A stretch of DNA of 20,228 bases from IMG/VR virus record IMGVR_UViG_3300038825_000003, positions 1 through 20,228 of that record, one strand, 5' to 3'. Below the pieces are notes generated by a model. That model did no database searches. It saw only the letters and a list, made by a program, of their open reading frames with translations, and was not told where the DNA came from. Made by a program: the position numbers and the translations under genes. Shown piece after piece: positions 9,050-15,920 of this stretch (position 1 is the stretch's first letter; the number at the start of each line of letters is the position of its first letter). Source of the DNA: a virus.

Positions 9050-9675
9050 AGCTTTTCAATCGCGCCAAATGTCAATTTATAAAAACCGGCATTATTAATC
9101 TGCCAGTCTGTTACTGGTGTTGATAAATGAAAAAGACCTTTAGCACTGCTAACGACAACGCTTGCACCATCAGCCGGTGATGATCTTAAATCCGGCCAAA
9201 TAGTCAAGGCGGCTTGCCCGCTGGCGTTGCTATTAACATCATCTAGCACTTTATAAAGCCGCGCAGTCAACCCACTGCCAAGCTGAATATAATCGCCAGC
9301 CTTTAAATAGCCAGTCGCCGATGCTGGTAAACCGTCAATGTTTAATTCGTTGCCTGTTTGACTTGCGCCATTAATAACCGGCGTGCCAGCCGCAGATGCC
9401 GCTGAACCGCGTGGCGTTGCTCCATTTGGATCACCCAGCAAGAATGATCCGACAGAACCATACAGTTTCATAAAAAACGCAATCCAAACTTCGGCATCAT
9501 CTCGCTTCATTGGCGGTAATGAAATATCAGCTTCCCATCGCGCACCTTGAAATTGATATGTTTGCGTTGCCATTGTAAATGGCGATGATGTTTGCCCAAT
9601 AACATTACGCGCAATCAAATTGACGCTAGAAACGCCTGTGTGCGTTGGAAATGTAAGCGGATAACTGATTGTCAT
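9046..9675 (-). CDS. Distal tail protein (gpM position)
   Basis: This 209-residue protein has the N-terminal FPLTFPTHTG-like opening (SYPLTFPTHTGVSSVNLIAR), a YQFQGARWEADISLPPMKRD segment, then GSVGSFLLGDPNGATPRG, and a second half with NGASQTGNELNIDGLPAS and LKAGDYIQLGSGLTARLYKV ending YKLTFGAIEKL. 'G.fLLGDP.gatPrG', 'Q.Gn.L..dG.p.s....LkaGDyiQlGsg...rlykvl.Dv' is a frequent distal-tail signature in siphophages. It follows the tape measure by two bases with GGGGG upstream of ATG, and precedes the L-like gene. It probably forms the ring at the end of the tube; low-level function is inferred from position. Confidence 0.78.
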   Translation of the reverse strand: MTISYPLTFPTHTGVSSVNLIARNVIGQTSSPFTMATQTYQFQGARWEADISLPPMKRDDAEVWIAFFMKLYGSVGSFLLGDPNGATPRGSAASAAGTPVINGASQTGNELNIDGLPASATGYLKAGDYIQLGSGLTARLYKVLDDVNSNASGQAALTIWPDLRSSPADGASVVVSSAKGLFHLSTPVTDWQINNAGFYKLTFGAIEKL

Positions 9676-13361: not shown

Positions 13362-14645
13362 TTAGGCATCAATGTCGAGACACGCAGCGAATGACTGTGC
13401 GTGACGAACAGCAATGTCGAGTTCTTGCATAACGCGGATGCGAACCGCGCCTGTTGAACCGGCTGTGTAAGGGTCGATCAAGATGTCTGGTGTGCTGAAG
13501 AAGCCCATCATCAACTGGCTAAAGTCACCGTAGATCATTGCAGATGCAGTGGTCAGTGTGCCTTTGGTCAGGTCAGATGGCACGTTATTGGTGATCGCAA
13601 GGTCGTAACCGTAAAGCGAGTTCCAAGGTGCATCCAGCAACATTACGCTATCTGTTGACGCAACCTTTGAAGTTGAAGCCATATGTGACTTAACTTTCGG
13701 GTTGGTCAAATAGGCAAGTGTGTTGCCGTTGATTGCAGCGTTGTCAACTTCGACTTCTTTCACCAGATCGGTGATTGCTTGCCAAGTTAGATCGCCACCG
13801 TTTGTGCCGATAGCAACTGAACCAATGCCAGTTGTGCCGGTGATGCCGGTTGGCTCATTAGAACCGCCGCCTTCGATAGCAACATCTTCGACCTTTTGAG
13901 CGATTGCGTTCAACAGGTCATCGCGAATGATTTGCTCAACAGATGGGTCAGACTGGATCATCAGCAAGCGGCTGATATCTGTGAATGCACCCAATGACTT
14001 TGGTGACATTGTGATCTGTGAGAAAACAGCGTTCACTTCAGATGTTGCGCCATTTTCAGCAACGAAACCGGCTGAAACGCCAGTTGCAAGCTTTGGAATA
14101 GCAACGTCACCTTTTAGGCCAGTCATAAAGCGTGCGCCAAGCTCGTTGAATACCAAGCGCGAACGCAGGGCATCAACAAACTGATCACCAAGATGATCTG
14201 TGCCGACCAAGTGACCACCGGCTGTCGCTGTGCCAACAGTCAGGTCACGCTTGCCGCCCCAGAATGAATCCGGTGCGTAGAAACCGCGTGCTTCGCGGCC
14301 ATTGTTCTTTGCAATCTGCTCAGAAACTTCACGCTCAAGACCCTGCAAGCCAGAACCATTGACCAAGCCGCGAACAGCTTTGATGAATGAATACTGACGC
14401 TGCTCTTTTTCTGACATATCAACCGCACCGGCTGACTGCTCAAGAGGCTTGCCTTCGCCAATAGCGTCAAGCAATGTTGCGCGAAACTGTGCAACAGACT
14501 GACCAGCACCAATAGCTTGATCGGCTAGATCGCGGCGGTTGTGTTTAACAGCAAGATTGATGATCTCGCTGGCATTCTTTTGGAAATCGCGCTTGGCTGC
14601 TTCGGCGGCTGCTTCGCGGATTTCATCGTGATTTACTTCAGACAT
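13362..14645 (-). CDS. Major capsid protein from an internal in-frame start (predicted 427 residues)
   Basis: Within the 852-codon ORF, codon 426 is ATG (14643-14645) preceded by AAGGAG nine bases upstream, the best Shine-Dalgarno sequence in the window. The position is exactly the boundary after the protease domain, at MSEVNHDEIREAAAEAA, a typical beginning for a capsid protein with a helical delta domain. The resulting 427 residues match the usual length of an HK97-type capsid precursor (HK97 gp5: 385). An independent start would solve the problem of making hundreds of capsid subunits per protease. The expected cleavage site lies between the delta domain and the fold, near residue ~120-140 of this product. 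Internal initiation is inference from the sequence. Confidence 0.7.
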   Translation of the reverse strand: MSEVNHDEIREAAAEAAKRDFQKNASEIINLAVKHNRRDLADQAIGAGQSVAQFRATLLDAIGEGKPLEQSAGAVDMSEKEQRQYSFIKAVRGLVNGSGLQGLEREVSEQIAKNNGREARGFYAPDSFWGGKRDLTVGTATAGGHLVGTDHLGDQFVDALRSRLVFNELGARFMTGLKGDVAIPKLATGVSAGFVAENGATSEVNAVFSQITMSPKSLGAFTDISRLLMIQSDPSVEQIIRDDLLNAIAQKVEDVAIEGGGSNEPTGITGTTGIGSVAIGTNGGDLTWQAITDLVKEVEVDNAAINGNTLAYLTNPKVKSHMASTSKVASTDSVMLLDAPWNSLYGYDLAITNNVPSDLTKGTLTTASAMIYGDFSQLMMGFFSTPDILIDPYTAGSTGAVRIRVMQELDIAVRHAQSFAACLDIDA

Positions 14646-15920
14646 TTTTGATGTCTCCTTTTTTATCACAGGTTCAACAATTTCAGCACTGCGGTTCACG
14701 CCGACACCAGCGTCAGCGGGAACAGATACAATACTAGCTTCGTATGGCACCCAAGATGAAATGCCGACCGTCCCGTCAGCCCTCTTGTCTTCCATTTCGC
14801 GGATTTGATACCCAATTGAGACATTCGACCGGATACCGTCCTTGACGTCTTGATAAACCTCTTGAGCCAGCGCACTTTTTCCAAAGCGAACCACCGACCG
14901 CAACTTGCGATCAGATTGATCCAAATAGGTACGTTCAATAACGCCAATCTGCTTTGTCAGGTCGTGATCTAACAGCAACGGTGCGTGACCGCTGCCTAAC
15001 CTTGACAAATCTACTGCGCCATCATTGTGGCGCAAAACTTCATAACCAAAAGACCGTTCAACCGGTTCTTCGCTTGAAATCGACATTCTGACGCGGCGGT
15101 CATCTTCTTCGACCATATCCGCAGCACGCGACCGAAACACCAGTTCGCCGCGATCAAGCCGATCCATTTCTTCATCATCTTTGTAACCGGCGGTTTGAGC
15201 AACCGGCGGTGTCGCATCTGACTTGCCAAACGTGATCGTCACGCTGTCGTCAGTCTCGACAATATCTTGAATATGTCTATCCATTGTCTTTACCTCGCTA
15301 GTGCTAAGATACCGCAGATCATTGATCTTGGTCAATGTGCTAAACTTGTGACCCACAAGGCGATCTGTGCCTTCATAGCCTTCATCTGTGCTTTGATATA
15401 TGCGGATCAACGCGGCTGGGTCATCTGGTGTGCCGGTAATTGTGAAATCGCTGTCTGGCACGTTGATGCTGCCGTCACGCTCAATGCGTTCGATTTCGCC
15501 CCGCGCAGTGCCGCCGGATGATCCCCACGACACAAAGTCGCCAATCGAAAGCGCATCTGGTGCAGCGCGTTCGCCTTCGTCAATTCTATCCAAAGCCATA
15601 TCTTTTGCCCTTGCCCACGTTTGACCGGCATCACCGCCCCACGCTGCCCAAGCAACGCGACCTTTTGACGGATAGCCTTCTTCCCCTGCGCTGAACCCTT
15701 CAGCTTGCTTATCAACTTCGTGACGGCTGAAAAAGCTGTGCATCCGGCGCACAATATCGGCAGATAGTTCTTGCCGGTTAGCCAGTTGGTTTGCACGCGC
15801 CACCGCAACCGCTGTGCCACCCTTTTCGCCTTCAGCACGCCACTTTTTGAATTTACGCGCTTCCGCTGCCATCCCTTCAGTCGGTTTTAGGTTTATTTCA
15901 ACGCCTTTATAGGTCGCCAT
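13362..15920 (-). CDS. Fused head-maturation protease and HK97-fold major capsid protein with an extra N-terminal module
   Basis: This is an 852-residue polyprotein-like ORF. Residues 1-115 are helical with RRMHSFFSRHEVDKQAEGFS and GRVAWAAWGGDAGQTWARAK, a phage head-gene module. Residues ~120-200 are a small SH3/tudor-like domain (IGDFVSWGSSGGTARGEIER, VGHKFSTLTKI). Residues ~245-405 are an S78-type prohead protease: GHAPLLLDHD with H319, DGIRSNVSIGY with S368, and E395 in YEASIVSVPAD as likely active-site residues. Residues 426-560 resemble the helical delta (scaffold) domain, and ~560-852 the capsid fold (AIPKLATGVSAGFVAENGAT, SPKSLGAFTDISRLLMIQSD, DDLLNAIAQKVEDVAIEGGG). Protease and capsid are separate genes in most phages. 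Internal start sites at 15284 and 14645 suggest that shorter products are also made. Its ATG overlaps the portal stop by 14 bases. Confidence 0.9.
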   Translation of the reverse strand: MATYKGVEINLKPTEGMAAEARKFKKWRAEGEKGGTAVAVARANQLANRQELSADIVRRMHSFFSRHEVDKQAEGFSAGEEGYPSKGRVAWAAWGGDAGQTWARAKDMALDRIDEGERAAPDALSIGDFVSWGSSGGTARGEIERIERDGSINVPDSDFTITGTPDDPAALIRIYQSTDEGYEGTDRLVGHKFSTLTKINDLRYLSTSEVKTMDRHIQDIVETDDSVTITFGKSDATPPVAQTAGYKDDEEMDRLDRGELVFRSRAADMVEEDDRRVRMSISSEEPVERSFGYEVLRHNDGAVDLSRLGSGHAPLLLDHDLTKQIGVIERTYLDQSDRKLRSVVRFGKSALAQEVYQDVKDGIRSNVSIGYQIREMEDKRADGTVGISSWVPYEASIVSVPADAGVGVNRSAEIVEPVIKKETSKMSEVNHDEIREAAAEAAKRDFQKNASEIINLAVKHNRRDLADQAIGAGQSVAQFRATLLDAIGEGKPLEQSAGAVDMSEKEQRQYSFIKAVRGLVNGSGLQGLEREVSEQIAKNNGREARGFYAPDSFWGGKRDLTVGTATAGGHLVGTDHLGDQFVDALRSRLVFNELGARFMTGLKGDVAIPKLATGVSAGFVAENGATSEVNAVFSQITMSPKSLGAFTDISRLLMIQSDPSVEQIIRDDLLNAIAQKVEDVAIEGGGSNEPTGITGTTGIGSVAIGTNGGDLTWQAITDLVKEVEVDNAAINGNTLAYLTNPKVKSHMASTSKVASTDSVMLLDAPWNSLYGYDLAITNNVPSDLTKGTLTTASAMIYGDFSQLMMGFFSTPDILIDPYTAGSTGAVRIRVMQELDIAVRHAQSFAACLDIDA
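14638..14664 (-). promoter_or_regulatory. Internal ribosome-binding site with start-sequestering hairpin and slippery heptamer
   Basis: In - strand order: A AAA AAG heptamer (14664-14658, in the slip phase), AAGGAG (14660-14655), stem arm AGACAT (14656-14651), loop CAAAA, stem arm ATGTCT (14645-14640) that contains the internal ATG. The 6-bp stem is perfect and pairs the whole start codon. In the -1 frame after the heptamer the codons read GGA-GAC-ATC-AAA-AAT-GTC-TGA, so a shift would end the protease at 14638. The site could therefore control the capsid/protease ratio in two ways. Confidence 0.6.
15282..15297 (-). promoter_or_regulatory. Internal ribosome-binding site before the protease domain
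   Basis: GAGGT (15296-15292) lies seven bases before an in-frame ATG (15284-15282, codon 213: MDRHIQDIVETDD). Starting here would give a protease of about 213 residues up to the capsid boundary, the normal size of a stand-alone HK97-type prohead protease, without the N-terminal and SH3-like modules. The match to a Shine-Dalgarno sequence is good but shorter than at the capsid start. Confidence 0.5.

Follow-up and report, generated by a model that had tools for sequence, protein, structure and literature searches.

An in-frame internal start in a fused phage protease-capsid gene, conserved across about 200 sequences, points to separate synthesis of the capsid chain

Introduction

Genes that join a prohead protease to a major capsid protein occur widely in phages, marine ones among them, and are annotated as a single "major capsid protein" of 600-970 residues, an annotation that is difficult to square with an ordinary shell and only limited amounts of protease. 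How can one such reading frame supply both? We address this question with the fusion ORF of a 20,228-base stretch of DNA, hereafter the window, which is the whole of an IMG/VR virus record. On its minus strand a probable small terminase subunit is followed by a large terminase of the lambda gpA type, a head-tail joining protein and a lambda-type portal, then by the fusion ORF and the tail genes (Table 1).

The fusion ORF carries an S78-type protease and an HK97-type capsid protein in one frame: phrog_617 ("major head protein") matches residues 265-847 and Phage_capsid residues 576-845, while the match to NF045541 is partial and below the cut-off (140.7 of 525 bits, residues 270-504). The protease half appears to retain intact catalytic residues, in that H319, S368 and E394, which we take to be those of S78 proteases, are invariant across homologues.

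Table 1. Features of the head-tail module and of the fusion ORF in the window
Feature	Position	Strand	Remarks
Head-tail module	window	-	gene set read from domain and phrog matches
Fusion ORF: N-terminal module, S78 prohead protease and HK97-type major capsid protein	13362..15920	-	852 codons
N-terminal module, residues 1-110, phrog_2859-like	15591..15920	-	small, conserved, helical; AlphaFold2 pLDDT 84
Module-to-protease stretch, residues 111-212	15285-15590	-	exchanged among relatives
GAGG, putative Shine-Dalgarno (SD) sequence of codon 213	15293..15296	-	anti-SD energy -7.3
Candidate second internal start, codon 213	15282..15284	-	start of the 640-aa protease-capsid form
Peptidase_S78 domain, residues 310-413	14682..14999	-	profile match
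AAGGAG, SD sequence for codon 426	14660-14655	-	9 nt before the ATG
Hairpin AGACAT-CAAAA-ATGTCT	14640..14656	-	perfect 6-bp stem over the start codon
Internal start codon ATG, codon 426 of 852	14645-14643	-	in frame with the fusion ORF
Predicted separate capsid precursor, 427 aa	13362..14645	-	starts at codon 426

Results

A strong initiation signal at the protease-capsid junction

An earlier note on this DNA had pointed to an AAGGAG nine nucleotides upstream of an in-frame ATG at codon 426, and both the positions and the resulting 427-residue product are confirmed here (minus-strand junction sequence, GTGATAAAAAAGGAGACATCAAAAATGTCTGAAGTA). By itself the motif is not significant, because AAGGAG-N5-10-ATG, found once in the window, is expected 0.85 times by chance in shuffled sequences, and we reject it as proof of the start when taken alone. 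The predicted pairing with the anti-SD is more discriminating: the duplex energy is -8.7 kcal/mol at codon 426 versus -5.0 at the fusion's own start, and only two of the window's 389 minus-strand ATGs, codon 426 among them, reach the former value. The description of this site as the strongest ribosome-binding site in the window was thus nearly correct, though strictly it is surpassed by the slightly stronger signal (-9.1) of the 209-aa tail gene at 9675.

The claim that the start lies at the boundary between protease and capsid also holds. The Peptidase_S78 match ends at residue 413, and TIGR01554, a model of stand-alone HK97-type capsid proteins, aligns with the fusion from residue 421, equivalent to profile position 10 of 385. 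An AlphaFold2 model of residues 213-852 (26-row alignment, mean pLDDT 67) places the protease first, then a segment with pLDDT under 50 at residues 412-431, helices from 431 and finally the capsid domain. Residues 412-431 are accordingly predicted to form a disordered linker just before the first delta-like helix, and there is therefore no obvious protein-level reason for a methionine at this point.

When the 427-residue product is taken alone, its residues 9-420 cover TIGR01554 positions 22-381 of 385; this near end-to-end alignment and the helices from residue 431 lead us to regard it as a complete HK97-type precursor, with a helical N-terminal pro-region followed by the HK97 fold, as in delta-domain precursors. 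A Foldseek search with the capsid domain returned as its best PDB match the capsid of roseophage R4C (8gta), followed by GTA and HK97 capsids. By analogy, we predict a delta-like pro-region at about residues 426-562 and a shell domain at about 563-852; HK97 and the extent of the 8gta chain suggest that the protease would cut at about residue 562. Mature virions are consequently a poor place to look for the codon-426 N-terminus, since residues 426 to about 562 are expected to have been removed.

The start codon is retained across fused relatives

Near relatives comprised 80 sequences from IMG/VR and two from bacterial genomes, and further ones 22 named phages and 97 more IMG/VR loci found through CRP-406 and Mano; cultured representatives include R4C, CRP-406 and HeidiAbel_Bas97. 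Every one of the 199 sequences whose fusion is open across this site, 198 relatives together with the window, has an in-frame ATG at the junction. They represent 92 distinct junction contexts and are not independent of one another; metagenomic viruses also recombine. The codon is kept across IMG/VR clades and in the 22 named-phage records, whose identity is roughly 30-46%. For the second set of relatives, in which the ATG was picked by SD strength no more than 12 codons from the aligned position, the offset was zero in 45 of 51 distinct contexts. One relative (L201) lacks the junction ATG and has instead a GTG, with AGGAG 8 nt upstream. The lengths of the internal products centre on 435 residues (5th-95th percentile, 427-463).

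A separate locus, L202 (2378-3991), encodes a related protease joined to a C-terminal half without a match to the Mano capsid; here too an ATG is found close to the junction, preceded by CAGGAA.

The Shine-Dalgarno signal is conserved as RNA

Upstream of the junction start, an SD-like core is found in 82 of the 92 distinct 24-nt contexts, a lenient count in which four-base cores were accepted, at a median spacing of 8 nt (IQR 6-9). The core falls in codon phases 0, 1 and 2 in 53, 12 and 17 contexts, respectively, and is encoded by 21 different peptides (KE, EE, LED, EGD, QRS, RG and others); its occurrence in all three reading frames and in so many peptides indicates that the RNA, and not the peptide, is under conservation. 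Among 24 non-cyanophage representatives, the SD energy at the junction stands out when compared with the full set of in-frame positions in these genes (Fisher p about 9e-12), with internal ATGs (p 5e-7) and with synonymous recodings of the peptides concerned (p 5e-4); these values assume independent representatives and indicate strong support, not exact probabilities. Among the ATGs of the gene, the one at the junction has the strongest or nearly the strongest SD in the window and in most members of the Roseobacter-phage clade.

Tests confined to one lineage are weaker, with a median p of 0.20 for synonymous recoding. Conservation of synonymous sites, which had been suggested as a check, gives a mild depletion at codons 426-430, in the 2nd-5th percentile only and not unique within the gene, and we do not use it as the main proof. 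MQ-4 and a few others have a weak junction SD, and no SD was found upstream of the retained junction ATG in the cyanophages S-CBS1, S-CBS3 and S-LBS1; the cyanophage junctions could fit a weaker use of SD signals in their hosts. In the cyanophage loci L088, L089 and L094, the stretch upstream of the retained ATG is A/C-rich and SD-free. Together, the conservation of ATG and SD across about 200 sequences strongly supports the hidden capsid start at codon 426 that the earlier note had put forward.

A hairpin over the start codon is confined to the near clade

In the window, the start codon is part of a hairpin whose arms (AGACAT, 14656-14651; ATGTCT, 14645-14640) enclose a CAAAA loop, and whose 5' arm takes in the final two bases of AAGGAG. 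Locally, the folding energy is -5.1 kcal/mol; over 71 nt it is -10.2 (z -1.6). The perfect 6-bp stem, correctly described for this DNA, does not extend to its relatives: the near clade has a version of 4-5 bp, and as a general feature the perfect form is rejected, the window alone possessing it.

The shorter version is nonetheless recurrent. Bases 2 and 3 of the start codon and the next two (TGTC or TGAC) are complemented upstream in 26 of 30 distinct near-clade contexts, against 6.5 expected under synonymous recoding. At the near-clade sites (L002-L081), TGTC is always paired with GACA and never with GTCA, and TGAC is paired with GTCA in 9 of 13 cases and never with GACA. The complement occurs in two registers, between SD and ATG or upstream of the SD. 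The same pattern appears at none of 26 other gene starts in the window and at 55 of 658 other internal ATGs, and in the Roseobacter-phage clade a matching 4-mer is present in only 3 of 38 contexts. Folding energies are not exceptional relative to synonymous recodings (mean z -0.91 versus -0.64 at control ATGs), and no conserved Rfam element was found. All supported independent contrasts on flanking-sequence trees agree with the pairing (12/12 for capsid, 7/7 for protease), support that we discount because about 20 nt is all that separates the linker from the second codon, so that both could have been exchanged as a block. From these sequence patterns, the near-clade hairpin is probably a clade-specific tuning element; the earlier note's proposal that ribosomes arriving from upstream open it goes beyond what these patterns show.

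A candidate second internal start precedes the protease

Codon 213, where the protease part opens, has the other strong SD among the internal ATGs (15282-15308, minus strand, GCGAGGTAAAGACAATG); the earlier note had missed this site. Where relatives lack the N-terminal module, their ORF starts at the equivalent methionine, preceded by an SD (L046, L051 and L060 are examples), others have the module fused and still keep an SD at this point, and part of the Roseobacter-phage clade has similar starts; CRP-823 is annotated with the module in an overlapping gene of its own. The conserved codon-213 start and these layouts make three nested products possible.

The N-terminal module has no structural match in the PDB. 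It also opens a 657-aa head-region gene of Vibrio phage 1.013, two genes upstream of the capsid gene, and occurs in a capsid maturation protease of phage DSL-LC01. Between module and protease, the window has a Hva1_TUDOR-like domain, and other sequences (L032, L054 and L043) an "RPYPNEHAARI" segment.

Discussion

Nested starts and their alternatives

The sequence comparisons lead us to the view, held firmly though short of certainty, that translation of capsid chains starts internally, at codon 426. We consider it very probable that the starts are nested, with codon 426 yielding the main capsid chain and upstream starts yielding a smaller amount of fusion that carries the protease. Ribosomes would initiate at codon 426 via the AAGGAG encoded in the protease-capsid linker, giving a normal HK97-type precursor of 427 residues that would serve as the main shell subunit and whose first roughly 137 residues may act as scaffold. 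Initiation at codon 1 or codon 213 would provide less of the protease-capsid fusion, whose capsid half would co-assemble and so bring a limited number of proteases into the procapsid, where these would remove the scaffold and cut the fusion. That bulk capsid comes from codon 426 and that the fusion is minor is suggested by the strength of the ribosome-binding site and by packing: by a rough estimate, 415 copies with about 560 extra residues each would fill most of the interior of a T=7 prohead. Loading of the protease by way of the fusion is likewise a proposed role. More tentatively, and at somewhat less than even likelihood, one mRNA may set the ratio of shell, protease and module through three products (an 852-aa module-protease-capsid, a 640-aa protease-capsid and the 427-aa capsid), with the near-clade hairpin tuning capsid initiation.

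The fusion could instead be the sole product, its capsid half assembling and the protease then cutting itself and the pro-region away, so that the ATG encodes a mere linker methionine. Indeed, no fused relative has an interrupted ORF, the catalytic triad of the protease does not vary and the long fused product is what named-phage records annotate; a methionine could in principle also be kept for some other reason, a point that bears on any use of codon 426. Yet a disordered linker demands no methionine, whereas the ATG is kept without exception among the open fusions with SD signals in all three frames, and the GTG of L201, a valine in the fusion, again follows an SD. By the rough packing estimate, 415 fusion copies would also occupy most of the prohead interior, and we regard synthesis of the fusion alone as quite unlikely. 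The same estimate counts against a reversed or balanced ratio, in which codon 426 is used, but the short chain is minor and most shell subunits derive from the fusion. The position of the start codon partly within the near-clade hairpin, which could lower initiation, and the weak SD of some lineages would be in keeping with such a ratio; against it, the junction SD ranks at or near the top among the gene's ATGs in the window and most of the Roseobacter-phage clade, and we consider it unlikely.

The junction might also be the relic of a recent gene fusion, with the old capsid start and its SD out of use. Unfused relatives do exist, which makes a past fusion of two genes plausible: L083, a distant homologue, encodes its capsid in an unfused ORF that has a start of its own, and single-protein scans with R4C and L083 returned no further unfused examples. 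An unused start and SD would be expected to decay, whereas this signal persists to about 30-40% identity, with the SD re-encoded in other frames and peptides, and a relic is thus very unlikely. Nested starts remain the preferred reading and, if correct, would resolve the conflict between shell and protease dose simply; the annotation of a large capsid family would then need correcting, and arguments about mass or copy number that start from the annotated fusion may be wrong.

Comparison with known systems

Fused protease-capsid genes and the nesting of lambda C/Nu3 are already known; a search of open-access papers yielded no report of an internal capsid start in fused genes. Like the NF045541/phrog_617 fusions, the gene in the window, which matches phrog_617, combines protease, scaffold region and capsid. 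Fusions have been described for MD8 gp5 (PMC8508860), Arthrobacter phages (PMC5513430) and Paracoccus prophages (PMC6536676), in each case, within the accessible portions of these papers, as a single product and with no internal start proposed; as characterised there, the MD8 and Paracoccus proteases are ClpP-like, in contrast to the S78 protease of the window.

The closest solved relative of the window's capsid half is the R4C capsid, and the R4C fusion gene has a junction ATG with GGAGG. The R4C shell consists of 415 copies of the capsid chain (PMC10276861), modelled as 268 residues against a gene product of 629; the text of that paper contains neither "protease" nor "cleav" and does not explain the route from one length to the other. 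HK97 gp4 and gp5 likewise place the protease before a delta-like scaffold and a shell of HK97 fold, as two separate genes where the window has one ORF.

In lambda C, the classic nested prohead protease gene, an in-frame second start gives rise to an abundant C-terminal product without the protease, and the long form is a minor carrier. These nested genes go back to Shaw and Murialdo 1980, as cited in PMC8508860. As in C/Nu3, the protease gene of the window has an in-frame internal start with a ribosome-binding site; unlike in lambda, which uses the internal product as scaffold and encodes its capsid in a separate gene, the internal product here is predicted to be a capsid precursor with its own scaffold region. 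The gene in the window works like C/Nu3, but is not C/Nu3.
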